A stretch of 64,000 bases of DNA from Tubiluchus corallicola (lineage: Eukaryota > Priapulida > Priapulimorpha > Priapulimorphida > Tubiluchidae), in contig JAQGDQ010000193.1 of assembly GCA_030141605.1 (NCBI GenBank), positions 1 through 64,000 on the forward strand, written 5' to 3'. Numbering within the stretch: position 1 is the stretch's first letter; each line of letters starts with the position of its first letter. Shown here in pieces: positions 136 to 29,510 of this stretch. The notes under the pieces were generated by a model, which did not search any database, was not told where the DNA came from, and saw only the letters and a program-made list of their open reading frames with translations. The position numbers and the translations under genes were made by a program.

Positions 136-315
136 CCGATTCTTCAGGCATGACGCACATGTTCTCACATTCCTCTTTCGTCTCAAATCGGTTATCGTTA
201 CCCTCGCAGCCACCGTACCAGAAGCGCTCGCAGGCACCGACGCCCATGTCGTAGTACCATCTGATTGTGAAGTTCTTGCAGGGGCCATCATCCTTTGCCA
301 AATTACACAGCATAT
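136..315 (-). CDS. Ppn: Papilin exon: Kunitz-type inhibitor domain
   Basis: A complete Kunitz (BPTI-type) domain with all six cysteines: MLC, GPC, GAC, YGGC, EEC, NMC. The hallmark F-x-YGGC-x-x-N-x-x-x-F is present. The P1 residue after the second cysteine (GPC-K) is lysine, which in the family predicts inhibition of trypsin-like serine proteases. It enters in phase 1 (codon TAT for Tyr) and leaves in phase 1 at gtaag, so the gene continues left of the window; papilins usually carry several Kunitz domains. Confidence 0.95.
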
Positions 316-3300
316 CTGAAAAAGTGTGAGCATTAAAGCCTTCACGTTAAAATGTCAACAAGAAATACCTCACAGAAATTATCGTAACTTCTTTGTCAGC
401 AAAGATTACTATTTAACATCGTTAACATCATCTAGTCAAAAACAGACATTGATTTACTATGCGCTTTTGAATTTACATATTTTTCGAAGCTTTTCTACTG
501 TTTATGTAATCCTTCTTAATTCTGAACATTACCCAAATTTCCAACCAGCTAACAATTATTGTTTACCGCAATTTGCTTAGTGACAGTGACTAAAAGTGTC
601 TGTACGGTATTGTAAATGTCTGCTTTAAATATCGAACACATACTATCAATTAGTTATTCAAACATTTATTACTATTTTTTGCTAAAAAACTAAAAAGACA
701 GCAACAAAGTGCATTAACTTCGAAAAGCTATGTTACCAAATACAATGACATGAGAATGGTTCTACGTAGTACTGGAAGTAAAAGCAGAATCTTTTAAATA
801 AGTACGTTGGTAGCACTGCATTGCTTCTGCTGAGCGACTATGTCTAAGACGTGTTACTCTTCGAATATTTCACGGTTTCAGAAAACTAATTACTACCTTC
901 GATACTTTTTAGCCCATAAAAATTTTCACTTGGAAACTTACACTTTGGTGTGGTAGTTACGATACAACCTTCCTTATCTGGTCCTTCAGCCGCAGTTATT
1001 CCATCGTCGCAACAACCGTACAAGGAGTTGAGACAATCTTCAAGTGGGCAACCTTCGAAATCTGGCCCGGTGGCTGGCTGAACCCCATCTAGGCAACAGC
1101 CATACTGGGATTCCGCACACTCGGGTATACCAGTTGTTTCAATTATCTACAGCGAACAATCAAAGAAAAATTAGCTGCTCCTCTGTCAGTGCAAATATGT
1201 CACTAATTCTAGAAGCAAACCCCAGTAAACGCCATACCTTCTATATACATAACAAGAAATATAACAAGTATATTTCATATAACATAACAAGTATATAACA
1301 CATTCATATATATATGAACATGAACATATTCATACATATATATGAACATATTCATATAACATAACAAGTATTTACTTCTTGAGTACCCCACGGGTCATTT
1401 GCGGCTTGGCATCTTGTGCACATAATAATAAATACATTATTAAATACTTTGATGTACAATGCTGTAATGATCATTGTGGATATATTTAATAAATAAATAA
1501 ATAAATAGTTCAATCGGCATTATGTGCGTGTTATATAGATCATTAAGTATGTTTTACATAGTCCACAAGAGCACAAATTAGCAGCTAATGCGTTCACAAA
1601 CTTGAGAACTAACCAAGCTGGCACCAGCAGCACTAAGAAATTATTATGTCTTATTGTCTATTTGTAATTTGTTCAGAATTTTCTGAGAATGTCAGGCATT
1701 CGGTAAATTTGTAGGCATTGCTGAAATTTTACTACTATAAACAGCAGAAGGAAACTAATGCTTTTCAAAAACGTCTCTATAGTATAGAAAATTGTTAGAT
1801 ACAAAATAGCCTGACGAAATATCTAATGATGATCTGGTAAAAAAGAACCCTTGGAGTAAATAAAGACAAGTAAGAAGATTGCATTGAATTGGGTATGCAC
1901 TAAGACTACCACAAGAATCTCCTCTTCCTATGGCATTACGTAACACTCTTGAAACGACAAAAAACGAGAGGAGATCAGCTACTGACATAAATAGACATAC
2001 TGCAAATAGATTTAGCAAAATACAACTCTAGATTTGAGGAATGATGCATTGTGAGCAGTGGCTCAGCAGTGTTTGACTTCATTCAATTACACAATATTTC
2101 ATACAAAAACTACGTTATTTACTTAAGTTTAGTTTTAGTACGGTAAGGTATACGAGTATTTACAAATATATCCTATTTTGTAACCATAATTAAAATTAAA
2201 ACAGCCATACCACAGTAATAGTAGCATTTTCTTCTATCACAGTTGCATTAAGCATCGGCAAAATGGTGGTTACATTCATTTCCACTTCTGTGACATTCAA
2301 CGCTTCTTCCGTCACTTCGGTAACGTTTTCGGGCATTGCTGTTTCCGTAACGTTTTCGGGCATCGCTGTTTCAGTAACGTTTTCGGGCATCGCTGTTTCA
2401 GTAACATTTTCTAGCGCAACGGTCACCTCTGGTGGCATTGTTACATTGAATTCTTCTGTTGACATAACCATGGTAACATTCACTGTCTCAGCAGTGACTG
2501 GAATTTCTGTTAAAACACTCACAAGATTAGTAAAAATCAGTAAAACAATAAGACACAGCCTAATAAGTGTCTACTAAATATCAGTAAAACAATAAGACAC
2601 AGCCTAATAAGTGTCATTCATCCAATTATCCATCCGTACTTATCAATCGTGTGGTTGATATTATTTAAGTAAATTATGTTACATCAACTAATCGCTCCAC
2701 CATAAGCGATTATAATAAAAATTTTGCTTTTAGTTTGCATATTTAGGCAAACATCAATATCATCTTAAGGTAAAGCTGCCCTCCATTAGACTACTACTAC
2801 CACTACCACTACTATTACCACCACAACTACCACTACCACTACCACTACCACTATTACTACTATACAGTACTGTCCACATTACTACCGACACATTAACTTC
2901 TACATAAGAGTCATTTGGAAATACAGAAGAATCCGCTTAATAAATCCGTCTTAGAGTGAAGCTAAAAAACTTTATTGAGCGTCTGGAGTTACAAACAGAA
3001 GAGACCTATAAAGTAGCATTTTCTACGTTAACACAGTATGTGTTGTTTATTTAAAAAGTCAAGATATATACTTAACACACAGTAAACTGTTTGCGTAACT
3101 CACATAAAGTATGTATTGTTTATCTATGATGCCATTACCCTTTATATGTAGGCTATGTGATAAACTGCTTGTTAAGTAAAAAAAATTGCAATACATGTAA
3201 TATCAGCGACAATTCAGCATTCGTCACCGTTTCATTAACGTTCTCACGTGCACAACTGTTTATCAGTTAGAATCGGCACTGTAGTCTAACTTATTACGTA

Positions 3301-6300
3301 TGCAAAATGAGTGTGTATACCATTATGTAGCATGCAATTGAGTTTTAAACCGAACGATATTCAAAGTGGGTTATTTTAGTAGGAATGTTTTTTTTTGATA
3401 ATCAGAATGAAAGATGCTGCTTGCATGAGTTCGGTGAAATATCGAAATTTCTGAATAGTCACCGTGATGCAGTGTTTCCAGCGAGTGTCGTATTCCAACG
3501 GCTGATACAGTAATTTCATTGATGTCGTCACCTCGATCTCATAAAATTGTAAAAAGTGCTTAGAACAATGAAGCTGATCTAGCTCAAGTTAAAACACAGG
3601 CCAATCGTAAAATCTTATGTCACAATTTTGTGTCTTCACAGAGCGCAAATGGATTTATAAACCCAAGTTTGGATTTAACAAACGGCAGATTTTACTAGGA
3701 TAATGTATTATACAGTTACCCAAGTTTGGATTTAACAAACGGCAGATTTTACTAGAATAATGTATTATACAGTTCCGTTCTAGGAATAGTGGCTACAATA
3801 GGTGGCTGGACTTATTATCCATGGATCTATTAAGCGGATGCTACTATAATATAAAAACCGGTTTTAAATATTTGTGGCGATAAAGAAGAAAACTACTCTT
3901 CATACAATAAATGTGCTTCTATATAAATAAGTGTGCAAAATAAAATTGCATTAAGTTGTGCGTTTAGTCATTTCAGACACTGTGTACAATTAACCTTAGA
4001 AACAGGTGTGTGACAATTATTACAACTAACCTTCTTCGCAGCCCTCACCCTCAGGGCCGGTGGCAGCCGTAACATTATCAGGACAGCAACCGAACTCTGT
4101 GTCATCACAGTCAGGAAGAGGTTCGATGGACGAAATGACAGGAATGCACAATTCTCCGCTAGCGCTGCCTAAACCGGATGCGGAGCCCTCGGCAGAGCCT
4201 TCCACAGTTATGCACTCGGTAAACCCTGTAACTATGGCAACAATTTTGTTTAAACGTCTCAAACAAGGTTACAAACCCTGGCAAAAAAATAAGAACTTAA
4301 AACCTAGCGAATTGTGGCTACAAAAACAGATTTATCAAAATGGCTATGTTAGCGTTATGAAGTTAATATGACACAATAATAATGAGGATATACTACAAGT
4401 ACAATACAAATGATATTTTCCATATTTATGTAGCTGGGTTAAAAAATAAAAGAAGTACTTCATTCTAACATTTGATATCGATTCACGCATAAATGTAAAC
4501 ATACAGATATACCATAAAGGTACATAGATATAACATAAGTCACGTACAGTTTCAAAGATAACATGTAATATTTCACATACTGTTTTGAAAAACAACGGAC
4601 AAACTGAGACAACGATACTCAAGACTCACCATCAGTCATGACTTCACAGCCCTCATAGTCGGGACCAGAACAGGCTCTGATGCCATCTGGGCAACAACCG
4701 AACTCCGTGTCCTCACACGGTGCAACGGTGAGGAATTCGCAACCTTCTCCATCAAAGCCATCTGCTGGTGTAAGGCCATCTGGGCAGCATCCAAATTCAG
4801 TAGCATTGCACGGGGCGATCGTGGTGAAGACTTCACAACCTTCTCCGTTGGGCCCGCTGGCTGATGACTCTCCATCTGGGCAACACCCGAATTCACTCTC
4901 GTTACAAGCTATGATGGTAACTGTTGATTCAACCAAACCTTCGGGAACAGTATCCCCAGAAACTTTTTCAGCTGGTGAAGTAACGTTCGCTTCCTCGCTG
5001 ATCAAAGTCACATTATCAGCCTCCTCGGTGACATTCAACAAAGACGTGACCGTTGCATTCACGTCCAAGACTTCTTCTGTAACATTCAATTCCGACTCGG
5101 TCACATTTATTGGCAATTCAGTGACATTCAACGAAACTTCAGTCATGTTTATGTCAGGCTCTGTAACATTTAAGTCTAAGACAGTAACATTAACAATCTC
5201 TTCAGTAACGTTTAGAGATGGTTCGGTCACGTTTGGTGCAGACACTTCCGTCACATTCAAGTCAGCTTCTGTTACATTCAATACTGGTTCAGTTACATTA
5301 ACGTCAAGCTCAGTAACATTCAGTACTGAAACAGTCACATTTGTGTCCAAATCAGTAACATTTGCTATTTCAGTGACATTCACAGCTACTTCAGTAACAT
5401 TCAGTTCTGGTTCAGTGACATTTGAAATCGATTCGGTTACGTTCAGAGCGTCTTCAGTTACATTCAAAACAGACTCAGTAACATTCAATACTGACTCTGT
5501 TACATTCAAAACAGATTCAGTAACATTCAATACTGACTCTGTTACATTTGATTCGATTTCGGTAACATTTAAATCTGATTCAGTCATGTTTGCAACTGAC
5601 TCGGTGACATTCACAGCCGATTCAGTTACATTTGCTTCCGATTCAGTAACATTCATAGCCAAGTCTGTTACGTTTGTTTCTGCTAACTCGGTGACATTAA
5701 CGCTAGGCTCAGTCACGTTTAGTTCTGCATCGGTTACATTCAGTATGGATTCTGTTACATTCAAGTCTGTTTCTGTAACATTCGCTTCTGCCACTGTTGC
5801 GTTTAGTTGTGTTTCAGTCATATTAACTACAGATTCCGTCACATTCAAATCAGTTTCTGTCACGTTCAAGTCCGCCTCTGTCACATTTAGGTCTGCCTCA
5901 GTCACGTTCAGATCCGCTTCTGTTACATTTAATACTGCTTCAGTCACGTTTAATGCAGAGTCGGTAACATTTGAATCAAATTTTGTGACATCTATCGATG
6001 ATTCGGTCACATTTAGAGCCTCATCTGCTAATTCTGTTATGTTCGCTAATTCAACGGTTGCATTTGGTGCAAGTGCAGTAACATTCAGTGCCTCTTCAGT
6101 AACATGCAGTGCAGTAACATTCGATGCTTCCACTGTAGCATCAGGTGCTTCTTCGGTTGCATTAACAGAATGTTCGGTTGCATTAACAGAAGGTTCGGTT
6201 GCATTAACAGAAGGTTCCGTTGCATTCAGTGCAGACTCTACAACAAATAAATAACTGGCATGCAGGAGCTAAACACACACATACATAACATGCTAACGTG

Positions 6301-9300
6301 AAAGTTAAAAAATGTGCCAAAATAATGTATAGCGACATGCATAAAGACATATAACAGACACGTAAAATAGTTCACACATGCTTTTACAAAATGCCGAAAA
6401 TTATTAGCATGTACAGCAACCATCTCTTCCTGAAAGGATTTTTTTATTTTTTATGAATTAAATGAATTTGTTAATCTACAATCTACTTTATTCAAGAGTA
6501 ATGTGTAACAACATTCAAACCAATGCAAAATGACTCCTGTCAGCCATTTGGAAATGTTCAAAACCAGTTAAAACATGGTGCATCAACAATTATTACAAAC
6601 ATCATTCTATGACCAAAAAAACAGGCAAGAGACCAGCTGTGATCAACTGTTAAGATATGATGACCTCAAAAAACAAAATGTGCAAATATTAAAAGCAAGA
6701 TGCTTATTTATAAAGACTCAAGGACAAAAATAAATAAAGGACGAATTATTTGAATCTTAGCTGCTATTTAAATACCTTGTCACTTCCGCCATTTTTTTTA
6801 CAAAATTAGAAAAGTAGCTTTGTGCAACGATAAAAGGATTTTTACAACTAATGCCCATCTGTCATCCAAAAATGGTGCAACTGTTACAAGAAAATATCAA
6901 CAGGCCAAATATAAAAAAGTGCTTTATCTCGAATATTGAAAATTTTTGGAAAGTGGCAGCACAATTATTCTTGTTACTAGAAAGTACTACACCTGCTACT
7001 TATGCTCAGTCTCAAGCTATGAAAAAACATGCACCAATATTTTAACTCATAAAACTTGCAAAAGTGAGTTGCTACATCACTCACAAAAACAAATTGTACA
7101 GATTTCATTCCTTACCTTCTTCTGTCATGTTTTTCATGTCCATAGATTCGGTCGTCATGTCCATTGCTGACACCGTTACCGTCTCCTTCACTTGTTCCTC
7201 TGCCTTACCAACAGTACCTTTGACGATGTATTCTTCCGTCATATTTAAAACGGGCACCTCTGTAGCGTTGACCTCCACAGCCTCCTCCGTTACTTGCGTG
7301 GCGACCACTTCTACGCCTGCCTCAATCTCAATGCCACCAGGCGTTGCCGTATCCGTTATATTTTCAGCCATACCTGTGACATTTTCAGCCATATCTGTGA
7401 CATTTTCAGCCATATCTGTGACATTTTCAGCCATATCTGTGACATTTTCAGCAAAAGCAGTGTAGTTTTCCATGACATCTGTAACAGTGACCATTGTGTA
7501 GTTATCCATGGACTCAGTTACATTCACTAACGCTTCTGTGTAGTTGTCCATTATTTCAGTAACAGTGTCCATTTCTGCTGTGACATTTTCCATCATGGTA
7601 GTGACGTCCACCATGGATGTAACATTTTCCAACACAATTGTGACATTTTCTTCCACAATTGTAATGTTCTGGGGTATTAGTCCATCCGCCATTGTAGCAT
7701 TTAATACAGTTTCCGTGGTAACATTATCGCATCCCTCAAACTCAGGTCCTGAAGCTACGGTTACTTCATCGGGGCAACAGCCATAGGCAGTGTCTTCACA
7801 ACCTTCAATCGTTGGACAGCCTTCCATTGCTTCGCCCTAGATAAACAAATCAAGAAGATATAATCATGGAGAGAAAAGTAAGCAGGGATAACCTGCTTTG
7901 CTTTCTATTCTAACTTAATTTCAATATGATTGAGACATTTTCTATAAGCATGTACAAACGGATTAATTAAAAGACTAGAATTCTTTCTCGCTTTGGATTC
8001 AAGCCAAGATCCTCTGCACCCTAAGCAGCTATGCTAATCATTACACATAGACAAACTTCAATTCCTTAAACACGAGGGCCTTTAACACAAAGACTGTGTG
8101 GGTACACCCCCCTTACAGGCTTCCCTTATATCCCTTGCAGGTCTTTCTCTTATCCCACAAAGGATATTTGCAATTTTTATATTTTTGCAATAGTGTTACA
8201 GTTGTTAATTTTTAAATTTCGGGTTTTTATTTTCCATTCCTTTAGAACGTTACCTGCAAAGAAAAATTGATTAAATTATCTTTTTAAGTAATAATACTGT
8301 AAATACTTAACTGTTTCAACTGCAACAAGTCTTCTAGAACTCAAAAACTGTCTTAAAGTGCTATTAGATGCAATCATAATGTTCTCAAATGCAGTAAAAT
8401 AAGTCCCAACACACCACTGAGGGAGCTTACAGCGCTATGCCGACCTCACAGCTGTTTGTCGGGCCTTGGGTAAACCCCTTATAACAAGTCATTATTTCGT
8501 AAAAAAGACAGTATTAAACACACAAAAATTAGAAGCAAGTTACTCATCATAATAAAATGCCGCACGTAATGGCATACAAACACACAAACAAGCAAAGAAA
8601 CAAACCTTTGCTGGAGTAACTCCATCAGCACAACATCCGTAGGCGGTTTCATTACACTTTTTAACAATAGGACATCCTTTCTTGAATGGTCCCTTTGCAG
8701 GTGTCATTTTGTCGGCACAACAACCAAACCTGAAATTTAAAACAAGTCAAATACAAATGGTTTGGTTTTTTATATAAATATCAACAAAGAAAAAACTACA
8801 TGGTATAAAAACTTTACAAGAGGTGTAGCAAGAAACGAACAGACAGATTTCAAATAAAATAAAAAGTTAAACTAAAGAGGTAAAAGCCTTACTCTGTTTC
8901 ATTACAGTGAATGCCGATTGTTTCATTTTTCGGACAGTTTTTCCTGTTCTTACCGGCAATGGTCAAACCATCTGCACAGCAACCATATTTAGATTTCTGA
9001 CAAGGAGTCATGATTCCATCGGGCTCTAAAAATATGACAAAACTTACTGAAAAAAATTGGCATATAAAGGTAGAAATACAAGACATTTTGCTCTTTTGTT
9101 GTTAAAAGGATGTTGGTTAAGAGCTGTTGTTCTAATTTTTACTATAATAGCAAAAATACGGTGCTTGTGCTTTAAACTCTATCTGGGGAGCTTATAATGC
9201 AAAACGAAAACTTTTTAAATCAAGGTATGACTGTAATGCATATGGCATGTGTACGAATCTTTGACTATCGCGTTTGATCCACTCACGTAGAAAATTGGCA

Positions 9301-12300
9301 TGTAGCCTTAGAAATACAGCTACCGTATTCTCAAATAACACCAGTTATTAATATAGTGAATTCTGTTGTACTATATAAATCAGATATGTTCAAAATGTGA
9401 AATAAGCTTTTAACTTCAAGTCTGCAATTCATTTAAGTTTTTAGTGCCACTTTAGTGAAGTTGTAATCATTTTTATGTCAATTTTATCTTCGGTTTATCT
9501 GTAATTATGTAAATATTTGTATATCGGTCATTTTTGCCCGAAATAAAAGGTATAATAAAGCGTAGTATACAATATCATAATCTTCAACCAAGTTTAACCG
9601 AAATGCACATCTATTTAACAGTTCCTATTCTGTGAGCTGTGACTGTTGCAAATCGAAGAATCCATCCACGTGACAGATAGGATATTATACAGGTATTTAA
9701 TGTTAGTGACTAAAGTTAAACAACACTGGACTTAGTTAGTAAATGGTTGGTATGCCAGAAAAATCGCATTTGGGCCATTTCATCTGTCATAGATTCCTTG
9801 ACTATTTATCTTGCTGAGAGAAGATGCACGTGTATCCAACTGTGTTTACGAGATTTCTGTTGATTCACTTTCTTAGAAGATAAATCTTGATAACGAGTTC
9901 GATTCCGAATGGGCCAAATTGATTATCGGTTTGTAGTATGTCAAAATGTACAGTCAGATCATACAAACCTTCACCACATGCATGTTGGTTACAAGACTCA
10001 TTGTCAATTGGTTTATCATTCATATCACACTCTGAATTGTTCACTTTCTCATTGTTGCTGAAGCACATGACTTCACGACTGCGAGTGCCACCTGCACACT
10101 CCTTGGAACACTAAAAAATGAAATTCAAAAGTCTGAAATTGCAGACCACAATCAAAAATGCAAAAAATGGCCATACACAATGTAACATAAAAATTTGTGT
10201 AGAATAAAAAAATGTGTCAAAGGAACAAACATTTATTTCAAAAAAGTTTTTTTTGTTTGCTTTAATGTTTAAAACATGCTGTCCACACACTAACTGAAGA
10301 CTTAATTCCACAAAAAGTTTAAACAGAAAAAACTCAAAATGCTGGTTTAATTTTTAAAATACAATTGTATTCAAGAGCTTGTTTGGAAATGCCAGAAAGG
10401 GGGTCCTGTTGGTGAGTGACACATGTGCGAGGATTAACCTACTCCATACCTTACCCCCATATCTATTCTACAACTACATGTATTAATGGATGCGAAATGC
10501 CTGCAATTAGAGGCCCAAAATTGTTGTACATATGTTATACACCAACATTTGTAATGTATGCATACATCACTGTATTCATAAATTGGTAGTGATAAAAATT
10601 TGTCATTATTATTACTGTTATAGTTTACCTGTGTAGTTTGACGAATTTTTCATAAAATTCAGTCTCACTTGAATAAACAAAATAGAGAGACCTACATGTT
10701 TGCATAACAGTATTATTGCATAACAACAAAGACTATGGAAATGCAAAAGTGCAATAAATATTACATACCTCCGTCCACGGAGCTGTTAGCCACATATTAG
10801 TACACGCAGCATTCGTGCAGGACCGCTGGTCAATGGGCCTTGTTTCGTTGTTGCACTCGTTTTCCGACAAAATGTTTAAACAAGATTCAGGTGATACGCC
10901 CAGGCACAGCACAACACGCGATTGTATCCCAGATCCACACGATGATGAACACTGCAGTGACAAAAAACGTAAGTAAAATGTATTCAAGAACTTACAGCAA
11001 TAACAATAATGTAACGTGCGTGTCTTCACAATACAGAAATTAATTACAAAAATACATGAAAAATATACTGCAAATTAATATTAGAAACCTTTTTCAGTTA
11101 TTTCCCTGTACAAAATAATTTCGTTTAAAACATAGTCCAAGAATAACACCTCAAGAAACTCGTTACCTATTTGCAAAGTGGTCCTGATTATTATTACCTG
11201 CACGTTACTTTGATAAACACGCAGTTTGATCGAAGAACCAGCGATACCATTTTTCAAGTCTTTGGTATGACTCAGTCGAGAGTTGAACTCATGACTTCGC
11301 GGGTGGCAAACGAGCATGCTACCACAGAGCTACGCCACCAGACACAACAAGTAGGCATTGTGAGCGCCAAGAACAAGACGAATTTTAATCATACAAGCAT
11401 CACAACAGATCAACAAAATCATTCTTAGTTTCTTCCCCAATTATCTGAAAGACGTTTTTGCCTAAACAAAATTCAAAATTTCCCTAAACTATATGCTGAA
11501 AGAATAGTTTTTAGTTTCAATTTTTCCGGATCGTAAATCCGAGCCGCAAATTTACCAAGTTTCTCTTTGAGCCATGCCCAATAAGTAAACTAATTTTTGT
11601 ATAATCCTACAGACACACAAACAAACAGCATTGAAAACATAACTCTTTGGGGGAGGTAACAATCTTAAACACAAAAATGACATGCTTACCGGGCTCCATT
11701 CTGAAGCATACCATGTGATCTCACAGGAGACTTCCATGGTGCATGGCCTAGTCGAGTTGGGTTTTCTGAATTCCTCGCACTTGCTGTCACTATAGATGAC
11801 TCCATTCTTACTGGCACAAAATACATGCCGAGTTTCCAGGCTTTCTCCACAATTATCACACTAACAAAAGAAGCTTATTAATGATTTTAAAATTTTATAA
11901 AAGAAACTCAGAATTGATCCGTTCTTTTAAGAAATGAGTTTTCTCAGATTAAGACAACTCTCTCCTTGCCTTCACGTTGTCTCACACTTTCCATTCTTTA
12001 CCAACCCCTTTTTTCAAATCATCACCTACGTTCATGTATTACGAAGCAATCTTCTGGCACAAACATAGCAGTGATGGTTGCTTCTACTATACTAACTGCT
12101 AAGTGCCTTTCTGTATGATGTACGATAATTTAAATTTAAATTTGATTACAACAGCATGGCAAAGGTTCAAAAAAGATAAACATTGATGGCAAACAAGCGC
12201 ATGTCAACACTATCTCATCTTTCAAATGAATACTGATTATTACACTAAAGATGCTACAGTTTTAAATTTTGCTGGATATCGAGACCAAATTATGAACACG

Positions 12301-15300
12301 GTAAATCTCTTTAGGGTATGTAATGCAGCAAGGATTCAGTTTAACCCTATACAGTTTTTCTCAGTGCATAAGCAGAAAAACAATCATTTACCTATTGGAA
12401 GAAAATAAATGCTCACATTCTTAACTCTTCTAATGTGAAACCTAATGCTCCAAAGAAAAATTGCTGTACCTGGCTCCATTCGGATGTTAGCCATTCTACA
12501 CCGACGCAAGGACCAGCGTTGCACGACCTATTTCGCCCAGGCCGATGTTCCTCGTCGCAAGTTTCTTCGGGTACCGTCTCATTAGCAACAGGGTCACGGC
12601 ATGTCACGGTGCGAAATTGTTCCCCCTTTCCACACATCACGTCGCACTGCAAAGCACAAATATACAAATTAATTTAGCATAATCTACATTTCCTCTCCAC
12701 AACTCAGTAAAAATTTAACAAATGAAACATGCTTTCAGCTATGAACTGCTGCAAACAAACACTATTTGCCAAAAACTACCAAGTTGAATTATAAAAACTG
12801 AACGCCATCTAACATATCTACTTTTTAAACAAAACGGTTTTCTTTAAACACAACAAATAGTGCGAGTGCTCATGATTTTTACTATTACGACCATTCCTAT
12901 TTTTGAGCAAAGTATCAAGATATGTAAGTGATACAGAAACCGTTTTTACATTCAACATTACGTTAAAGATAACTCACAGGGCCCCATTTGCTGGTATGCC
13001 ATTTTGCACAAGTGACATTTGCAAAGCATTCTTGCATGATTTGCGGTCGTGGTCCCTCTGCTTCTATGCATGGCTCTTCGTCAACTCGTGTTGGCAATCC
13101 ACCAAGCTGCTGTTCACAGAAGACGTTACGGAACTGTATGCCTCCCGCACAAGAGCTGCTGCACTCCTCCCATTCACCAATGTACCAACTAAAAAAATCA
13201 ACAATTAATGTCAGTCAATTTCATTTCCTCTTTACAAAATTGCTCAAATGAAACAGCAGACATTTGGCAACAGTTACAAAAATATGGTATTTTCTCTGTA
13301 TAACGAGTACTGGCGTATAAGACACACGGCCGTCCCTAAGGCTGTTTTTGTTTATTATAATGACAGTTCATAATAACTGATGTGATGAAATTAACGAACT
13401 TGATGTAAAAGCAGTAAACAATGGTAGCAGTAAACAATGTAAAAGAACCGATGTTTACACACTATATAGAAAAAACCAGTAGATGGCAAAAGTCAGGAGT
13501 GAAAGTCTGGCTGAACAGCAGCTAAATACAAACTCACTCCGTACTGCTGCAATTTTGCGCATAGAAAAAGTTCATTAGTGTATTCACCTATTACTGGTGT
13601 GGCGATAAAAATTGTGGCCTACATTGGACCACTACATTCAGGGTATAAGACGCAGGCTGTTTTTAGCATCGTTGTTGCTGGAAAAAAGTGTTTTTACTTG
13701 GCAAAAAATATGGTAAAAAAAATGTATCACGTAAAAATGAACAACAAATAACCAATCTGCCAAAATTGCAGCAAAAAGGTTAAAATATTTATAAACATAC
13801 TACCATAAATGAGCTGTGGAAAGAAAGAACCTATTTATCATCATCAGAAATAACCCAGACAATGACTGACAAGATTCAGGTCAACATTTGAAGTAGTATT
13901 TTTCCCATTTCAAACAATGATACAACAATTCCATGCACAACTCTCGAAAATTTCGCAAGATTACACTCAAGTGTCAACACCCAACACTGGTACAGTTCCA
14001 CAAAAAATCAACCCTGGGAAAAAATGCAATGACAACAATGCGAGCATACACACCTAGCCGGACATGCCTGCGTGTTGCACTCCTGGCTGACTGGCGGTTT
14101 AAGCAGCGGGTTACATAAGTAATCACTAACGACCTCAAAACTAATGGTGCGTGCACACTGCACTGTTCTTGAATGTGTTCCTAAAAAATGTGTAATAGTA
14201 AAATTTAATGTGCAAGCAACAGGAAACTTAAGTAAATTAACAAAACAATTCATTAACAACCATCTCGGTCATACTAAAAAGAGACAAGCAATATTACCTC
14301 CTCCGCAAGACTGACTGCACTCCCCCCAATCAGTGTAGATCCAAGAATAGGCATCAGGAGTGGCCATCGTGACGCCCAGTGGAACAGAGTATTCATAAAT
14401 AACACCAACATTTTTCTCTTGCAGTAAGAGCTGAAATATGAGGAAAGAGAATTATCTATAAACACTGCAAATGAGTGCTAGCATTGTACAAGAATAATAT
14501 ATTATTACAGAAGAGTAAGTTTGATATTTAAATTATAAGTTAGGTTAATGACAAAGACAATATTAAAATGTAAACTTACAATTTATATATCTCAGATATT
14601 TAAAAAAATCTGTTTTTAACTATTTTAGACAATAGAAAAACAAAATGCACACCACACTCAAACTTTGACACTTGATAAATGACCTACTTACACCAAGAAC
14701 AAAAGACAGGTCATACTGATCATTGATCACAAACACATACCACAATAAACAATGATTCAGTAGTAGGTCCCAGAGCTTCTAAACTGTCAGGCGCATTGAA
14801 TGCATGAGGTCTGCGTTTGTAGTGGAATGTAGTTCCGGCAATTTTCAGGTCCCTGGGATAGTCAATTTTCCAGTCTCCATTAAGGTAAAAAACTCCATCT
14901 GTGTTTCTAACGGCTAAACAAGGAAATTGTAAAACATACAAACACTTTCTAAATTAATTAGTTCAAATTACATTTCTGGAATAGCTTTAAAATGATATTT
15001 TTTGATCTTTAAAAAACTTTTTAAAAACATATTAATCTGCAAACTGCAGCTAAGAAGTAAGACATTCACTTAATGTTTTATTTGCAACGTATATTAAAAC
15101 CAAGCATGAATGTTCGCACTGAATTTTATACTGAACAGACTGAGTTATTTTAAAACTTGAAGGCCAGTGTGAACCGCCCTTAAGGAAGTTTAATTGTGTA
15201 GCCAAGGTGGCTACATCTTGCTAGTAACTTTTAAAGTGTATGCACTGACCCAGGTATGATGTCACTACGCTGTTCAGTAGCGTATGTGTATGAACTGACT

Positions 15301-18300
15301 TGAGCAAGCAAGCGAAATTTATCATTAGATGTATGTGGTAATGATGTAAGTTTACTTTTGTTAATTTCTTTTTTAATTTATTCGTTGATATATTTGACCG
15401 ATTTATTTAACCAATTCATTCCCTAAAATTGTCGAAATGTCAGTCAATTTGCTCTTAGAGAACTGTTGTAATTTTAATTATTGCAGAAATGAAGGTCAGT
15501 GGTTTACATGAACTTCAGAGAATTTCAAGGTTTTATCATAAATGCCTTCCAGAAGCACTAACATTAACCAATCCAGGGTAATTTATAAACTAACAGAGTT
15601 CATTTTATTTGAACAAAAAACTGAAAAATGAATCATTTTGAGAACGGCGTTTCAATCTTCAGACATTACAGAAATGTTACGTAAACAAGAATTATGTTTC
15701 CTAAGAAGCAAGTCAGAGCGAAGAAAACCAACCTAAAAAGTTGCTAGATGCACGCCGTTCTCGTATGTGGATATTTGTCGCTCCCGGCGGAATCAGAAGC
15801 ATATCTGTGTAACCTGGAAGCAAAAATTTTACATGAAAACTTTAAATTTTATAACTAAAACTGTGCACATAAAAACTATGTTAACAATAATATCATTTAT
15901 AAGTCAAAGCACACCTAGCAGCATAATAAGTACATCATTGATTGAATTTCATTTCATTTCAAGGTACATGACAACAAATTCAGACGAATGTTCAGAGAAT
16001 ATATCCTCTATTACTCTAATTCTTAACTCATGTCTCACTGATATTAATAAGAGAAAGGCTGAAGGGCACCTATAATCGGAAAGGAACCGCTAAAATTATA
16101 TACCTATTTGTAAGTTATCGATGTCGAAGATATCTTCGATGGTTTTGCAAGTGCTGCCGTCTCCACCGCATTCTCGGCAATTGTCTTCTCTGGCGGAAGA
16201 GCCTAAAATTTTGTCACAGCCCACCGTCTACAGCAAAAATAAATAAACGAGACATCACAGAGTGTCCCAATTTTACACGTAAAAAGGCTATAAAGAGAAA
16301 TTTCATTTATTAAATCATTTCAATTCGAGACTTACGAAAGGTAGCTTAAAAATAAAGCCTTAATTTGACATTTCTCAATAGTGACCAATGGAAATTCCTA
16401 CTTCTACTGTCGGAAGGTGTTTTTTGCTGGCTACAAGAAGTGTAGCTTATAGGGCTGCTGTTTAAAAAGTTAAAAATCAATGATATCCTATATAAAGTAA
16501 TAATATGCTATAAAAGAAAGGATGCAATAATATAATTTTGTTGAAGCATTGTGGTATTTGGCTGATAGGCAATAATTACACCATTTCTGTTAAAAATGTA
16601 CAAATACTTTTTACAACCTATATAATAGTATATCACAACTTTGTTAGATAAATTCATTTTTGATAAAGCAGAAGCAAATTTGCAACATCATCAAAAAACC
16701 TTAAGTCTATTGGAAACAATGATGAAAAATGCACAAAAGGCAGACTAAATAATTTAAAAACACAACTAAAAATTACAAAAGTGTCCTTTTTCAGTGCCCA
16801 CCCATTCAAGCACATTCAGAATCTCAATTCACAGGTATCTAACCACTTTAACACCTAACAAACCCACTAAAAGAACTGGAAAATGTCAGCAACAGTGTCC
16901 ACAAGTCAACCAAAATTGTGATCTATAGCAGGAAACCGTACTAACTGGTTTTTAATAATTGTTCCATTGTGGAAAAGAAAACAGAATGCCAAGTTACTTT
17001 AAATTTAATTTATAAAAAAATTGTCTAGTTTTTGAAATAGAGAAATTATCTAAGACAGCCTTATAAAACTCTTTCCTACTAAACAGCATTAATATCCTAT
17101 TGTAATCAATCAAACGTTCCAATGTAATGTAACTATTGTAACATTTCTTAAACACATTAGTCCTAGATATAACAAGCTTGCAGCAGCTGTATTTTCACAA
17201 GTACCAAGATCACTGGGAAGGCTCCTGGTTCCTGCGTTACTCACTTGCGAATTAACTCTAAAGAGGTCTGTCTCGTCATGATGTTGTTTGGTTTCGTTCT
17301 TATTCTTGTTGTTCTTCATGGAGTAAGTTTTATCAGTTTTTAATCTTGTGAGGTTAAAATAGAGTTATTCAGTATTTTATGAAAAAAAGGATCAATGACA
17401 ATCGTAAACAGTGTTCTGAATGTTCTAAATGAAACAGTCACAAAAAACTGATCCATGACAAAAGAGTAGATAATATTCTAAATAATATATCCAGGTAGTT
17501 GGGAAGAAAAAAATCAGTAATGAGTAACATAATGCTTTGCATTTTGGACTGTTTAAACACTTTATTATGTGTATATATTTTCATCCATGCAAACTGCAAA
17601 CTTTTCTAAACAAAATATAAAATGATACGATAGAAAATTCCATGTGTACTACTTTATTAAAAGTTGAAGGGCCTTAAGGTCTCCTAGCGAAAAGTGGCAT
17701 CTTGGTACCTGTGGTTTTAACCCACATCCTAACATAACTCCTCCAGTTAGATGCTGGTCTGGTTATGCTTTTCTTGGGGTTTGGTCTGGCTCGTTGATAA
17801 GTAATGGACGACAAGCCAATTTTTGTATTTTCTAAACACTGTTGTACAAAGTAACTTTGTTGGGAAAACTCCATGAAGAAACTCAGAAACTACATGCATT
17901 GTGCAAACAGGTCTTTAAGGAATCTAATAAATTAATTTCACAACTAAAACAAAATATACTGCTGTCTTACTCGACAAATGCCATCAACGCAAACGTCTGT
18001 AGTATCTGCATTACAGGGCGTACCATCTGCCACCTTTTCCGCAAACCTATAATAAAAGTTCTCCCCTTCCGGCCGACAATTCAACTCACAATCAGTCACA
18101 CCTACAATAAAACAGAAAATTGGTTTATTTATAATTATAAACGTGAAATTCTGGAGAATAAATTAATAAACGTTGAAGCATTCGGCCTCTCTTGTCCATT
18201 TGTCCTCTCTTACTAACACACCACAGATAGTTTATGTAGATGAATATTAAAAATCTAAAAATACTAAAAAGTGACTGATGTCATAAAACATAATAGGTAG

Positions 18301-21300
18301 TGATGATTTTTGAGGAGTCTGACTATTTATTATTAGCACACCACAAACAGTGAATAAAAAAGAGGGTTACAATGAACAAAAAGCACATACTGAGCAAAAA
18401 ATGTCGTGTTGGAACAATAACACATGGCAAATAATTTTGTACACAGGTCGCCAGTGCATACTGCTGGCAAAGAAACTGACGCCAATTAGCATAAACACCA
18501 CACACTGTTTGCTACCCTTGACCTCGGCTCAAATGAGTTAATCCTCTCATCATAAATTAGGGTTTGATACATATATATACGCATTATGTAAAAAAAGTGG
18601 CTGCACCCTAAATATTTGCAAAAATTATTGTAAAGGACAAGAAAAACCCTTTACTTGTAATAAAGCTAAAACATTCGTCTTGAAATTTTATATTACTTAC
18701 ATGCTGTCTTACTGCGTACAGGGTTTGCATTAACAGTCAAGCTGATAAAACTTGTAAATTTAAACTCACGTGATGACCATTAAGTGCAGCCATTTTAACA
18801 ATACGTCGTTTGAAAGAAGTCGAAATAGCATTGCATAAAGTTTGAAAATATAATCACAGCAATCATAGCACACTCTTCGCTAGCTAATAAAAATTATAAA
18901 TGACTGTATCTTGCCAAAAAAAAATTAAAAGTACTTTTTGGTGAGTCAGTGGTGCACCCTGGGAAGGTGAGTCAGTGACATTTTACCAGTTGGCGCAAAC
19001 ATTAAAAATTACTAGGAATTTTCTTTTCTAGTTATATAAGTCTTTCAAGCATGTTGAGTAATATAACTTTATGTAGAAAGTTTTTTTAAGACATATTTTG
19101 AAATTGTCTTTTCTTCCCCTTTAAGACACATAGAAGAAAGAAAACCAAATTTGACAGCATTGGCCAACTCTGTCCAACTCCAACATACACAATGGCTCCA
19201 ACGTCTTGGAGATACATGGGTAAGTTTTTGAAACAAACAGATCAGAAAGAATCATCAACTTTTCTCGACAAAAAACAGATGTTCATTTCAAGACTTCTAT
19301 TCAAAAGATTGGTCAACGAGGAGTCACTAAAAAAAATCATAATAAGAAGAGGTTATTCGGGCCTAACATTTTACAGGTATTACGGATCTCTTTGCCAAAG
19401 CTGTAAAATTAAAATGATATTAATTCAGCCAAGCTGGAAGTTTTAGCAGACATTGGCTATAGTTAAAATGTTTTTAACACACGAGCTGTACTTATGTGTA
19501 AAAGATCGTTAACTCCAGTCAACATCCGTTGATATTTGAAAATTAAAATACCCATAACTTTGTATTGTTTTACACAATAAGCAAAAGAAACAAGCATGTT
19601 AATTATTAAAAAACGTCCAACCCAAAACAAAGGTCATGACAAGGTCACTATTGCCGCACAATAACCATGTGCACATAATTTCCTCGTGCTAATGACAGAT
19701 ACGCCACAAAGAAGAAAATAATAATTTATTTTTAATAACACCAGAAAAAACATTCCCTAATTTTCATTTCATGAATGCATAACTTTCACACGTGCTCCGG
19801 ACATTTGCACGCCATTAAGAAACGAGAAATTCCTGCATGTGCCTGAAAAGTGGAAATTTTTGAAATATTCACCCCTTGCTGGTTGTTGTTATTAGTAAGC
19901 TTATCAAATGCCTCAAATATAATATCAAAATAAATCCACATGTTCGTATTTGTTTACTTTAAACGGATACCCCACGACAGACAGGATGGTGTCACTTTTT
20001 GCATTTAAGGGCGGGGTGAGTGAAAAACATCGGAAGTCCTGGAACGCTTGTGAGAAAATCTGTACGCGGAAAACAGCTGATGTCGTTATGACAAACCTCT
20101 ATTTTTACATGGTGTAAACATGTGGAAAAGCACTGCTAGTTTTTATGGACTAATGCATATTAATGCAAATGCTGCCTGATACCTGAAACAAAATAGCCAT
20201 GTAGCCAAATAACCTAAATGTCAATTTGTAAAACAGGGTATTACATAACTTTTTGCTATGAGGTATAAAAGCAACAAATAATAGCGCAGAACAATTTAAT
20301 ACGTGAAATTCAAAATATTGCTGAAACAAATGGGAAACTGTCATACTCTCGAAATTTAGTGAGGGAGATTTGAGTGGAATCTGTCATACTCTCGAAATTT
20401 AGTGAGGGAGGTTTGAGTGGAATATGTCATACTCTCGAAATTTAGTGAGGGAGGTTTGAGTGGAATCTGTCATACTCTCGAAATTTAGTGAGGGAGGTTT
20501 GAGTGGAATCTGTCATACTCTCGAAATTTAGTGAGAGAGGTTTGAGGGGAATCTGTCGTGCTCTCAAAATTTAGTGACGGAGGTTTGAGGGGAATCTGTC
20601 GTACTCTCAAAATTTAGTGAGGGAGGTTTAAGTGTCTTGCATACCCAGCAATTGGGGGGGGGGACAATCGGAGCAGTGACTCACTCATCATCCAACCCAT
20701 CTTGCAGATGTCTCACTAGATTGTTTGTCAAATACAGATCAACGACAAGTTCTTGGACTATATATGGGAACACACTGTCCTTAAGGATAGTTCGTACGTA
20801 CGTAAGTCACACTAAGACTGTCCCCTTACCATTTAAGTACGGCAGCCAAGTGTAAAATTTTCCCTGAAAACGCTTGTTGTTTTGAGCGGAGCACTGTTCA
20901 GCTCTGAAATCAGCTGAGCTATCCGGGCAATCCTGGAAAAAAGTTGCAACTTGTAACACAGTTGAATCAAAGAAATAACTATCACTGCAAGTCAAAAAAC
21001 AGAAGACATCAACATTTCAAGTGATCTACCTTTTACAATAGTACATTAAGTATAGTTTCATAACATCATACGTTAATATGTAATATCCGCATTATATAAC
21101 GATTAATTAATTATATAATATAACTAATTATATAACGATTAATACGTACGAATTAATATGCTGAGACAGTTATACAGGTAAAACAAAACTGGGCCACCCA
21201 TTATGAAAACAGTTCTAGGTACAAGGAAGATGACGATGATAGAGATGACAATGATAATGACAATTACAGTACCAGTAAATGGTGACAAGATGATGACAAT

Positions 21301-24300
21301 GATAACTGATAATGATGACGGTGACAGTAGTGATGATAATATTCCTGGTGGTGATGAAAGTGATAATGAATTTGAGAAAGAGGCGGCAGTGACAATGACA
21401 ACAAATATGGTGAAGATAATGACGCCATTAGAGTCACAGCTTGCTTTTTTTCAAAATGTGAATTCAGCGCAATTTAGCAGTTTCAGCATCTTTAATCTAA
21501 CATGGAATAAACATTAAACAGAAAGCGAAAAACTGGTTAAGTTAAAACACAATTTAGAAACGGTTTTGTTTATACAAGCAGTGACATGTAATGAAAAATA
21601 TAGTATGATGAAATATACATTTTTAGGTGCATTTGGCTTCTTATATTTGTCAATATGTACTAAGAACGCAAGACTTCGAAAAGCAAACAGTTACTATTTG
21701 TAAGAAGTAACCAGCTAGTCAAATGAAGCCATTTTTGTCTGCATTTCAAATCTGATTACATGAACGGTTAATGTGCAAAGGTGTACGAAGTACTTTTCTC
21801 GTAACCCCAACTGTAATCCCACTTAACTATTCATCCCCTCCTAGTCGTGCATCCACTATTCCACTTAACTATTCATCCCCTCCTAGTCGTGCATCCACTA
21901 TTCCACTTAACTATTTCACCCCCTCCTAGTCTTGCGTACGCCCTCCTCCCCCAGATAAGGCGTATAAAACAGTATTTCTCCACCCCAAAGCTTACAAATT
22001 CAGCGAAAACAAACAGCGGACTGATGTAGCCTGACCGACTTTACCACGCAGGATTTACACAGATGCCTACTTAAGAAACAGGGAAAATAGAGTGGTTTGA
22101 TTCGGTGACGACACCAGAGAGCACCACGTGCAAAAACACTGCCAACACGTGTTCATCAAATGTCATATCAAAATAATTACTGTAACAGCAAAAAAAATAA
22201 AATTGCATTGCAGCAAAAACTGAACAGCCACGTATATCAAACAAATGATAAAACACTGTTACAAAGTTTTTTTACTAGCAGTTTTTTTAAGTAGCTCATG
22301 ATGATGGCAATTACAACGATTTGATAGCAGGGGTTATGTTGACGTTTCAAGATGGTAATGATGACGATGAGTAATGGTTGTAATGATGAGAAGTAATAAC
22401 GATGACGATGATGACAATGACGGCGATGATGACGATGATGATGACGACGCTCATGATGATGATGATGATGATGATAATGACGATGATGCCGGCATTGATG
22501 ATGATGATGAGCTGATCTTCAATGTTAATGATTACGATGCTGACGAAAAAGGTGATGATAATTGTAATGATGATAGTGATGATCATGAATGATGGTGATG
22601 ACGATAATGATAACAACAACGACAAGACTGATTAATGATGGTGACAATGCTGGTGATGTTTAAACCAACAATGTGTATATATATAATCATCAGTGCACTC
22701 CAGCAGCATTACTATGGATAAAAGTTTAATTTGAGTCCAAATACTCATTTCTGTACAGAATACTGCAAACTAACTGGGCCATTAAGCAAATTCACAAGTC
22801 TATATATAAATCATTTTGAACTTTGGCAGAGGAATAACCATAAACACTGCAAACATTACCGACCAACACTATCACATTAACCCATTACCTCTTACCCAAC
22901 GTTAGGTAATCAGTTTACCCAACATGACCAAACATTTATCTAGTAAACACTCAGTTATGCTAATCCATCAGGCTCCAACTGGGCTGTTATATCTGGCAGC
23001 TTTCAAATGTGAAACATCGTTTTCAAACTATATTACACAGAGCTTACAGCTTCTCGGTTAATGAAACACATAAGGTACGTATAATTGTAAAACGTGGAAT
23101 CATCAAGCTAATCAAAGATTTAATGCCTATCCACTTACCTGAATATTACAAGATCTATACACCCGACTGGCACCTATGCAAGCAGGATATCCATCCCACC
23201 TAAACAATCAAACATTATTCATATAAATCCATATACCAATTGTTGGTTAGTAGTCAATTAAATACAGTTAATTAATTATTATTTACTGACTGACTGACTG
23301 ACTGACTGACTGACTGACTGACTGACTGACTGACTGACTGACTGACTGACTGACTGACTGACTGGCTGACTGAATGGGTGGGATGGATGGGATGGGATGG
23401 ATGGATGGATGGATGGATGGATGGATGGATGGATGGATGGATGGATGGATGGATGGATGGATGGATGGATCAATGGATGGATGAATCAATGGATGGATCG
23501 GTGGATGGATGGATGGATGGATGGATGGATGGATGGATGGATGGATGGATGGATGGATGGATGGATGGATGGATGGATGGATGGAGAATAATCAATCTAT
23601 CGATCGATCAATCAAGCGTTAATGAATGTACGAATAAGAAATTAAGTTAATCACGGAGGAATAAGCATAATATGTATAACGATCATGACAGCTTCTATTA
23701 TCCAATTGTTTTCAAAATAATTCTCAAAATCTAAAAATATAATTGCCCTACTACACAATATACACTGTTCTAACGCCAGTGGGACTACTGTTTAAAATCA
23801 CAGGTTAAGGACTTCTATAACTAAAGTTTAGTTAAAACACTGTTTATAAAGTTTAGTTATAGAGGTACTTGCACAGGCATATCAACAGATATACCGGTTG
23901 CCGGTCTCGTTTAATACATGTTGTCATGGGGGACGGACAAAGGGCCACCGCTCAAAGGACCACCGAACAAAGAACCAAAGACAAATGCTAACGGAATATC
24001 GTGTGAGATACATTGCGCTTTGTGTTCAGATATTTATATTAGTAATTTTCAGAGATTAAATGCGAAGTTCTGCATTGTTTATTTTTTGCGTCTTCAGCCG
24101 TTAGCATAGACCTAACTGATAAGAATAATATGAGAAAGCCTAGTTCCTGCTTTTTATTCAGATCAGCACCAAACACCGGGGAACTCACGTGGCTTAGAAA
24201 CAACGAGGTCATTTAGTAACTTTAGTCGCAAAAGCAAAATTTTTCATCTCAAGTTGATAGGAAGTGATATATGGACGCAATTTGCAAGTCATTTAAAGAC

Positions 24301-27300: not shown

Positions 27301-29156
27301 GATGGCAGTTTCAACGAACCGGAAGCCAAGTTTAGTGTGTAATCTAACGTTCCGGAAGCCAGGTTCAGTTTGTAATCTATCGTTTTTAAACTTGCTTTGT
27401 TAATTGAAAAAAGAGGTTCATGTCATCACAATATTGTTTTCTTATAAGCCGTGCAATTATTTATACTGGCAAACCTATCTGGACAGAGTTTTGTCTGGGT
27501 CAATCTGAACAGAAGAACAGAAGCTTGGCTCAAAAGTGAATCCATGTCGACAAAGGCTTGTCTTTGTCAGAGTTTAGCCCTCAAACTGGTTAAGGTCTCT
27601 AGTCTGTCTCTACATTAATTACCAAGCAAAGACGATTAAAACAAAAATTTGTACGTTAAACAAAAGGACGTACGTTTTTCACTTTTATAAAACTTTTTAC
27701 GCCTTTCCACTTTTTAGACACTCAATACCTGTTAAGTAAATCAAAGCTTCCTTTAAGCACGTGGCTTCACTTTGTAATTGCAATTGAACATTAAACAATT
27801 GAACTGTTGTTCGGGTTTAATATAAACAATCGATTCGGTCAAATGTTGTGTAAATAACGGGTCCGCTAGGGGGAGTGTAAATCCGGGTAAGAAACTTTTT
27901 ACAAAATCAAGAAATCTTGAAGTCTGAATAACTCTATACAGTTTACGTAGTTTTAGAACTATTACAGTCGGGGCTAATTAAGAGAAAAAAGGGAAATGAC
28001 TGTGTACAGCCATCAAACTTTTGGGAATTTTTTTACCTAAAATTCCACATTGTGGCCGCAGTCCTCAAGCACTAAATGGCCAGAGATCACAGACACAATG
28101 ACCTACTATTACGGACGAATAGGAAATTACGCGTGGATTTTGAATTGGTGATATCTTAGGCACACACAGAGTTAACCAAATTAGTTTGCTGTGTCGTCAA
28201 TCCCTCATTCAGTTCACAAAATCATGCATTTGTGACTAGAAACCGATTAGTCTGTTTGTTAAATACGCGACAGTAGTCAGTAAATAAATATTGTATTTGT
28301 ACATGTATTTGTATTTGACAGTGTCTTTGTCTTTGTCTTACCTGGCATATATCAGACAGGAATTTAACTGAAATTCAATTTGACGGAACAGTCTTAAAAA
28401 ACTGATTTCTCGTTGCCACACGAATGACCTGCATTAGAGGAATTACCCAATACATTCACTTACACCCAGAAATCGCTTTTCCAGACGACTCTAACATTTC
28501 CAAACAAGTATTTAAAGGATGAAATCTTGCTCAACATTTGCTTATAAAATGACTCGTGCTTACTGGATAAGCCAGAGAATCCACACACACACACGGGACA
28601 AAATTTATCTCTAAACTTCAAGAAAGACAAACAAACCAGACACAAAATCTCTCTAAAAATCGTTTAAATTATGAGATCAACAGCCCCTGTATTTACGACG
28701 ATAAGTCAGTTGTGAGTAACAGCACTGAAAGCTCATGATTTTTATATTATGCTTAGTAATGAATCTCACAGGAGGAGGCAGAGCGGTTTATTTTTATAAA
28801 AACAGGATTTACGTGCGTTTTGAGCACCCATAGATAAACACAAGATGGACCGAATATATACAACGACAAACAGGGCTTGGCAAGCTGGGGAAGTAAAATT
28901 AAACAAATTAAAAATTGAAAGCCAAACAATTGTCTTACACCAATGATAACCCAGCGCCCCCAACGTCGAAGAACACACATTTAGGAACTGTGGCAAAATT
29001 CATGCTGGGCTGAAAGAGGAAAACGCAGAAAGAGATGATACAGACGACGTGGCAAACGAGGAGACAGATGAGCGACAGAAGATAAATTCTAAAGAGTGGG
29101 ACAAGCAGACAGGCAAAGAGCAGACAAAAAGAGATAGACAGAGAGGGAGAGGAGAG

Positions 29157-29195
<39 letters not shown>

Positions 29196-29462: not shown

Positions 29463-29510
<48 letters not shown>

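Follow-up and report, generated by a model that had tools for sequence, protein, structure and literature searches.

A minus-strand gene of 22 exons can be modelled in the window, by which we mean the whole stretch of 64,000 nucleotides of Tubiluchus corallicola DNA that was analysed. The model is stop-free throughout and encodes 1822 amino acids, but both its N- and C-terminal ends are absent. No 5' end could be found for the gene, the core exons of the model running to 25299; at the other end the gene leaves the window after one Kunitz domain. The order of domains is an ADAMTS-like core, lagrin modules and the Kunitz domain (Table 1). Pfam matches in the core are PF19030 (six stretches), PF00090, PF19236 and PF05986; among the three closest papilins, the alignment of the core starts at residues 41, 97 and 43. 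Pfam finds no metalloprotease domain in the 22 exons, a model without its 5' end. Lagrin CC modules number nine by pattern and ten by eye (one with an extra Cys), and Pfam reports no family for these stretches at E 0.001.

Among the 120 relatives listed of 662 matches, most names are papilin or papilin-like, by impression and not by tally, and some unnamed or hypothetical relatives show papilin-type Pfam domains. For many of the matches listed, C-terminal Ig and PLAC domains are given; the gene here leaves the window. The ADAMTS-like core, the lagrin CC modules and the Kunitz domain are all present, which supports the assignment of the gene to the papilin kind. A reading made earlier from the letters of the DNA alone (hereafter the sequence-only reading) had named a papilin with TSP1, lagrin and Kunitz modules, and this is supported.

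Table 1. Features of the papilin gene and of its repeats, in the order of transcription
Feature	Position	Strand	Details	Evidence
ADAMTS-like core: TSP1, ADAMTS cysteine-rich, spacer 1, more TSP1	9969..25299	-	14 exons	PF19030, PF19236, PF05986
Lagrin modules 1-3	8606..9025	-	exons 9025-8893 and 8729-8606; directly after TSP1 array; module 3 finishes in exon A	splice sites, gene model, lagrin pattern
Exon A: end of lagrin 3, lagrin 4, stalk tract A	7116..7836	-	tract A ~7728-7116, 204 aa, 18 N-x-T	phase 0 in, phase 1 out; splice AG/GT
Recent-looking repeat	7346-7452		21 bases, 5.1 copies, 93% matches	Tandem Repeats Finder
Exon B: stalk tract B, then three lagrin modules	4630..6237	-	tract B ~6237-4916, 441 aa, 56 N-x-T, heptad xxLNVTE	splice sites, model, sequon count
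Recent-looking repeat	6152-6226		21 bases, 3.6 copies, 96% matches	Tandem Repeats Finder
Lagrin exon between tracts B and D	4031..4225	-	phase 1 at both ends	splice sites, gene model
Exon D: stalk tract D	2211..2506	-	99 aa, 10 N-x-T	gene model, sequon count
Recent-looking repeat	2316-2411		27 bases, 3.6 copies, 94% matches	Tandem Repeats Finder
Two lagrin modules	942..1146	-	downstream of tract D	gene model, lagrin pattern
First Kunitz/BPTI domain	136..315	-	gene continues beyond window start	PF00014, E 2.6e-20

The sequon array and the constraint on it

Exon B encodes 57 N-x-T sequons and one N-x-S, which makes 76 sequons together with the 18 of exon A. The sequence-only reading had given about 18 and 58 for these two exons, with NES in a lagrin module as the only Ser sequon and one sequon per seven residues as the typical spacing. 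Borders, frame, counts and the lone NES were all confirmed, and the spacing is seven residues in 45 of the 55 gaps of tract B (range 6 to 14) and in 9 of 17 in tract A; it is so in 2 of 9 in tract D. The extent was underestimated: a third sequon-rich exon, D, lies beyond the lagrin exon that separates it from A and B.

Over the three tracts (744 residues) all 84 Asn stand in N-x-T and none in N-x-S, with V (62), A (11), M (5), I (3) or Y (3) at x. The tracts contain no Cys, have a net charge of -144, and hold 23 Pro, 38 Ser and 123 Thr, 84 of which are the third residue of a sequon. The stalk had been described as acidic and nearly free of Pro and Cys, and this stands (the 645 residues of tracts A and B include 16 Pro and no Cys). 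One Cys-free stretch, of 648 residues, has 74 sequons and is 20% acidic and 22% Ser plus Thr. Shuffling the residues 2000 times gave a mean of 12.6 N-x-T and a maximum of 23 for tract B, against 56 observed, and a mean of 3.4 and a maximum of 9 for tract A, against 18. When all six frames of the window were scanned for places where 40 residues hold three N-x-T, 77 matches fell in the three stalk exons on the minus strand and three elsewhere. The x-Thr pattern occurs without Asn in 9 of 27 matches in tract A and 4 of 14 in tract D.

We compared neighbouring repeat units by pN/pS, anchoring the units on Asn alone or on Thr alone and quoting only the unanchored codon of each. In tract B the ratio is 0.037 for the Asn codon (Thr-anchored, 46 pairs; 5 nonsynonymous and 17 synonymous changes) and 0.000 for the Thr codon (Asn-anchored, 45 pairs), against 0.70-0.96 for the three codons preceding Asn; pS is at least 0.55 at every unit position. 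Fisher tests against the flanking codons give p 8e-5 (Asn) and 4e-14 (Thr), rough values since they use raw counts, unadjusted for numbers of sites, from neighbouring units that are non-independent. Because the Asn and Thr codons hardly change while the flanking codons do, the sequons of tract B, to which the Asn test applies, appear to be themselves under selection. Loss of the sequon Thr is likewise zero in tracts A and D. Position +3 (mostly Glu) and x are also constrained in tract B (0.15-0.20), for which the need for a bare sequon is not a full explanation; in tract A the x position is unconstrained (0.93).

The plus strand over tract B is open as well (4659-6254, 531 aa stop to stop), because the third codon positions of both frames coincide. 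Antisense coding was rejected: the lagrin modules in exon B fix the minus frame, and where the x-Thr pattern has its Asn, the three tracts show 84 Asn and no Lys, the base that separates the two being the free third base of the plus-frame Thr codon (ACN).

Other papilins and similar arrays elsewhere

For comparison we fetched 120 papilins, the best of the 662 matches. A Cys-free spacer of at least 150 residues precedes the first Kunitz domain in 87 of them, with medians of 505 residues (151-831), one sequon (0-8), 45% Ser plus Thr (10-60), 23% Asp plus Glu (15-33) and 2% Lys plus Arg. The 648-residue stretch here is close to these spacers in length and charge. In 86 of the 87, however, no lagrin lies ahead of the spacer, whereas the stalk here comes after lagrin 4; hence the two would be analogous at best. 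No Cys-free stretch in the 120 has more than 8 sequons, against 74 here. The fetched papilins, which come from arthropods, Lingula, Owenia and others, share the ADAMTS-like core (46-53% identity, 25 best by core), the lagrin array and the Kunitz domain, but their spacer is mostly Ser/Thr-rich. Those of Trichuris and Trichinella (P0063, P0070) reach 10 sequons per 100 residues, some of them in an insert between lagrin modules; by eye, and unlike the stalk, this insert is short, has Cys and shows no heptad array. When 29 of the 120 papilin cores were placed in a tree with the gene in the window, the gene had no supported sister, and no close relative was found among the fetched papilins or in the stalk searches.

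The sequence-only reading knew of no papilin described with such a domain, and such a tract is absent from the 120 papilins. N-glycan enrichment in papilins as such is not new, because the lagrin modules of the fetched papilins are sequon-enriched. A tardigrade papilin is described as N-glycosylated, with data on 2 of its 21 potential sites (PMC12167791). MIG-6, the papilin of C. elegans, has the papilin cassette, lagrin repeats, Kunitz domains and 18 listed N-glycan sites; compared by description only, it has no sequon-saturated stalk mentioned in the available parts of its accounts (PMC12721165, PMC11844652). In the titles and abstract openings listed from the open-licence literature on papilins and sequon repeats we found no description of such a stalk, and no paper was found on papilin and sequons together.

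A search for relatives of the N-V-T heptads had been proposed with the sequence-only reading. Residues 990-1460 of the model (E 1e-5) gave three matches among 7984 candidates scored, and a second search, with tracts A and B and two lagrin modules (E 1e-3), yielded three among 7992; none is a papilin. These searches covered proteins of about 1000-3190 and 390-1240 residues within a capped set of candidates, and a relative may have been missed. The match P0121 (1795 aa, ENA) has 95 sequons (83 N-x-T) and a stretch of heptads of the type LNVTDSTVNVTES, with 38% identity over 69% of the query; unlike the papilin here, it has no listed Pfam domain and no visible lagrin, and is Thr/Ser-rich throughout. 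P0122 (Woesearchaeota archaeon) and P0124 (JGI) have sequon repeats of NVTEP type, and P0125 (Methanolobus) has GNVTPGD repeats; these three proteins are unrelated and likely convergent. Two others were set aside: P0126, which carries VRDGRLSV repeats, and the fish neurocan P0123, whose heptad tract has few units that are sequons.

What the stalk might do

The reading that we favour, at roughly two chances in three, is a papilin in which an array of N-glycan sites makes up a Cys-free spacer that links the ADAMTS-like core to the Kunitz end, and this array is predicted to form an acidic N-glycan bottlebrush. STT3A, the translocon-bound transferase, is favoured in mammalian cells by Thr at +2, by the absence of Pro, Gly and Cys at x and by few nearby Cys. 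Because the residue context of the stalk matches these conditions, most of its N-x-T would receive a glycan during entry into the ER, so that an acidic, extended chain might bear up to 84 N-glycans. STT3A skips N-x-S sites that lie close together, and N-x-T is favoured (PMC7226087, PMC4750078). The glycans and the charge might keep the chain stretched and hydrated, so holding the core and the Kunitz end at a distance from each other within the matrix, and the coat could shield the chain from proteases. By analogy, the stalk would on this reading have the role that may fall to the Ser/Thr-rich spacers of other papilins; those spacers presumably carry O-glycans, to judge from their Ser/Thr content.

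The earlier suggestion of a spacer is supported by the spacers of those 87 papilins. That of a domain built on N-glycans gains from the codon selection in tract B and from the lack of such tracts in the 120 papilins, the attachment of glycans itself being what we infer. Mucin-like domains are defined by Ser/Thr/Pro-rich repeats. The term holds insofar as the stalk, like O-glycan mucin domains, would bear dense glycans on a repeat chain, but not by composition: its sequons are N-linked, and both Pro and Ser are scarce. It can also be suggested that the stalk is an "N-mucin", a domain whose chief conserved feature is a dense ladder of Thr sequons selected for serial co-translational N-glycosylation; that it arose within a single lineage of papilins, taking the chemical place of the acidic Ser/Thr-rich spacer that others have; and that like ladders arose separately in a secreted-type protein and in archaea. 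We give this broader proposal an even chance.

Dense sugar brushes are usually conceived as O-glycan mucins or glycosaminoglycan proteoglycans. If the bottlebrush reading is correct, animals can build them with N-glycans too, all 84 Asn lying in favourable sequons and the codons pointing to selection on the sequon and not on its flanks. The stalk would then provide a naturally occurring substrate on which to measure how many successive sites the translocon-bound transferase can fill, and would offer a frame for comparing papilin spacers of differing glycan chemistry.

Several other explanations can be considered. The array might chiefly be a multivalent ligand, its near-regular N-glycans being recognised by lectins, of galectin type or other, through which papilin is cross-linked to glycoproteins of the cell surface, with the spacing of the ends secondary. 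One study reports that LEC-1, a galectin of C. elegans, has MIG-6 as a major partner, and argues that chondroitin can compensate for a loss on complex N-glycans in distal tip cell migration (PMC12721165). The regularity of tract B fits as well, but tracts A and D are less regular, and we consider this unlikely as the main role. A lectin ladder, that is a multivalent glycan surface, is perhaps an additional role of the bottlebrush spacer.

If instead Thr or the NVTE tetrad were the element kept, for O-glycans, binding or phosphorylation, Asn would be incidental. Thr is indeed retained after every stalk Asn, and Glu at +3 and Val at x are constrained in tract B. However, changes of Asn are rare too, no stalk Asn lies outside a sequon, and Pro, which is common near O-glycan clusters, is scarce. 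This is improbable. About as improbable is a rod in which the heptads fold as a beta-solenoid, Leu and Val facing inward and the glycosylated Asn outward: AlphaFold2 gives tract B alone five-residue strands of period 7, a block of about 170 residues at pLDDT 75-85 and pTM 0.60, but mean pLDDT is 62 (32-62 over five models), no PDB match reaches E 0.001, TM-scores by model length are at most 0.40 among the 50 matches listed, and the spacing of tract B is irregular. A neutral or slippage-driven minisatellite encoding N-V-T by chance, to which the arrays of period 21 (exons A and B) and 27 (exon D), some of them recent, and the 6 of 412 tract B unit pairs at least 90% alike (lags 1-8) might point, can practically be dismissed, as 60 of the 61 DNA units of tract B are distinct (mean identity 0.57), Asn and Thr codons vary almost solely at synonymous sites, and mean identity shows no steady fall as units lie further apart (0.62 at lag 1, 0.58-0.63 at the lags between, 0.60 at lag 8).

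Exon B, like the lagrin exon that follows it, has phase 1 at both ends, and could be skipped in frame.

Gene model and composition of the stalk

The 22 in-phase exons with AG/GT borders (table) give 1822 codons without a stop; first and last exons were not found within the window, and the gene continues past it. Pfam recognizes TSP1_ADAMTS (six stretches), ADAMTS cysteine-rich, ADAMTS spacer 1 and one Kunitz domain in this model. Most of the best 120 of 662 database matches are named papilin or papilin-like, and core identity reaches 53% among the matches listed. Hence, as the sequence-only reading had it, the gene is a papilin in the features tested. In a tree with 29 papilin cores the window sequence stays unplaced.

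Our recount agrees with the 76 sequons claimed for two exons (18 in exon A, 58 in exon B), the NES of a lagrin module being one of them, and exon D carries 10 more. All 84 Asn of the 744 stalk residues (tracts A, B and D) lie in N-x-T and none in N-x-S; x is V in 62, A in 11, M in 5, I in 3 and Y in 3. That the stalk is acidic and almost free of Pro and Cys is borne out by a net charge of -144, 23 Pro and no Cys. Shuffling residues within each tract 2000 times gave means of 3.4 (A), 12.6 (B) and 1.9 (D) sequons and maxima of 9, 23 and 6, compared with the 18, 56 and 10 observed. A six-frame scan of the window for three N-x-T in 40 residues found three places outside the stalk exons, two of which overlap inside the 7TM-like frame; this frame has no Pfam match at E 0.001. 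The antisense frame is open as a side effect: its third codon positions fall together with those of the coding frame.

Features of the window
Feature	Position	Strand	Length	Sequons	Remark
Papilin model	25299-136	-	1822 codons		22 exons
Stalk tract A	exon 7836-7116	-	204 aa	18	lagrin parts excluded
Stalk tract B	exon 6237-4630	-	441 aa	56	lagrin parts excluded
Stalk tract D	exon 2506-2211	-	99 aa	10	lagrin parts excluded
Lagrin exon	4225-4031	-			phase 1 at both ends
7TM-like frame	33534-34619	+	362 aa, 357 from first Met		single open frame; by eye, seven-helix membrane look and sequon-rich N-terminus
Antisense of tract B	4659-6254	+	531 codons		open frame, SVTF repeats
Long simple repeat	28938-29613				open frame, Ser/Leu repeats
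Long simple repeat	23286-23591				open frame, IHPS repeats
Intronic tandem duplication	3661-3774		57 bases per copy
Intronic tandem duplication	2531-2615		44 bases per copy
Intronic hexamer array	2790-2853
Intron stretch	about 11340-11220	-			likeness to dispersed tRNA-like element (GTGGCGTAGCTCTGTGGTAGCATG...), by eye

Exon B is also phase 1 at both ends; judging from phases, it or the lagrin exon could be skipped in frame, while loss of exon A alone or exon D alone would break the frame. AlphaFold2 draws period-7 strands for tract B, a prediction we do not trust given its low mean pLDDT, the lack of a PDB match at E 0.001 or better and the irregular spacing.

Apparent selection within the stalk

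The x-Thr pattern finds 61 units in tract B, five of them without Asn; they have 60 distinct DNA sequences and a mean base identity of 0.57. Comparing neighbouring units 7 residues apart, pN/pS is 0.037 at Asn when anchored on Thr (46 pairs) and 0.000 at Thr when anchored on Asn (45 pairs), against 0.70-0.96 at the three codons preceding Asn under both anchors; it is 0.18-0.20 at x and 0.15-0.18 at +3, the position after Thr. pS itself is close to saturation (0.55-1.27). Fisher tests on raw counts against the flanks give 8e-5 (Asn) and 4e-14 (Thr), rough values since neighbouring units are not independent and numbers of sites are unadjusted. Homogenisation might also keep Asn and Thr constant, but it would keep synonymous sites too, and these vary. 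Because of this, selection in tract B appears, from codon comparison, to act on the sequon itself.

Anchoring on Asn in tracts A and D (17 and 9 pairs), which tests Thr and its neighbours, again gives zero nonsynonymous change at Thr, with 0.45-0.88 at the three flanking codons. There +3 is weakly held (0.63 and 0.59), and x is unconstrained in tract A (0.93). Asn is missing from 9 of 27 pattern matches in A and 4 of 14 in D, some of them out of register. Tandem Repeats Finder detects recent duplications in all three stalk exons; therefore unit turnover is still going on.

Comparison with other papilins

We compared the best 120 of 662 papilin matches, some of them isoforms from the same species. 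Among these 120, a Cys-free stretch holds at most 8 sequons (median 2; window 74 in 648 aa), any 100 aa at most 10 (median 3; window 15), and a whole protein 7-53 (median 18; window 98 from an incomplete model), the 53 belonging to a Tachypleus papilin.

A spacer, taken as a Cys-free stretch of 150 aa or more that lies beyond residue 500 and ahead of the first Kunitz, is present in 87 of the 120, with a median length of 505 aa, Ser+Thr 45% (10-60), acidic 23% (15-33), basic 2% (1-27) and a median of 1 sequon (0-8). The window spacer resembles these in length (648 aa), acidity (20%) and scarcity of Lys/Arg, but differs in its 74 sequons and in Ser+Thr of 22%, half of theirs. It follows lagrin 4, whereas 86 of the 87 have no lagrin ahead of the spacer; our home-made lagrin and Kunitz patterns miss some modules (one lagrin in the window). 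An Owenia papilin has 121 aa after lagrin 3 with 25% acidic, 25% Ser+Thr and zero sequons.

Lagrin modules of the 120 contain 629 sequons in 1708 modules, about threefold what shuffling gives (mean 217, sd 14). They occupy fixed positions relative to the G of GCC, with Asn five residues past it in 341 cases and 5 or 4 ahead of it in 234. Thus papilins, by their sequences, also gather N-glycan sites by a second route.

Searching with the stalk, as had been proposed, among scored candidates of about 1000-3190 and 390-1240 aa did match sequon repeats, but none in a papilin. The matches include P0121 (1795 aa, 95 sequons, a signal-peptide-like start by eye), the archaeal P0122 and P0125, and P0124. 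Such sequon-rich non-papilins suggest convergence.

Potential glycosylation and role

According to work mainly in mammalian cells, STT3A acts on entering chains and favours a Thr in position +2, while it often misses closely spaced N-x-S, N-C-T/S or Cys-near sites and those close to the C-terminus [PMC7226087, PMC4750078]; the review among the two adds N-x-G. The stalk sites are free of these features except tract A's first, two residues past a lagrin Cys, and we infer that they would carry N-glycans. In a tardigrade papilin, 2 of the 21 potential sites are reported to carry N-glycans [PMC12167791]. The C. elegans papilin MIG-6 is listed with 18 N-glycan sites and cited as partnering the galectin LEC-1 [PMC12721165], and extensive glycosylation is mentioned for Drosophila Papilin [PMC12045604]. 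From this literature we suggest that the stalk is probably a hydrated, protease-resistant spacer holding the ADAMTS-like core apart from the Kunitz end, lectin binding being a possible second role. For MIG-6S in neuronal maintenance, a preprint describes rescue by a construct without the Kunitz end and none by one without the papilin cassette and lagrins [PMC11844652].
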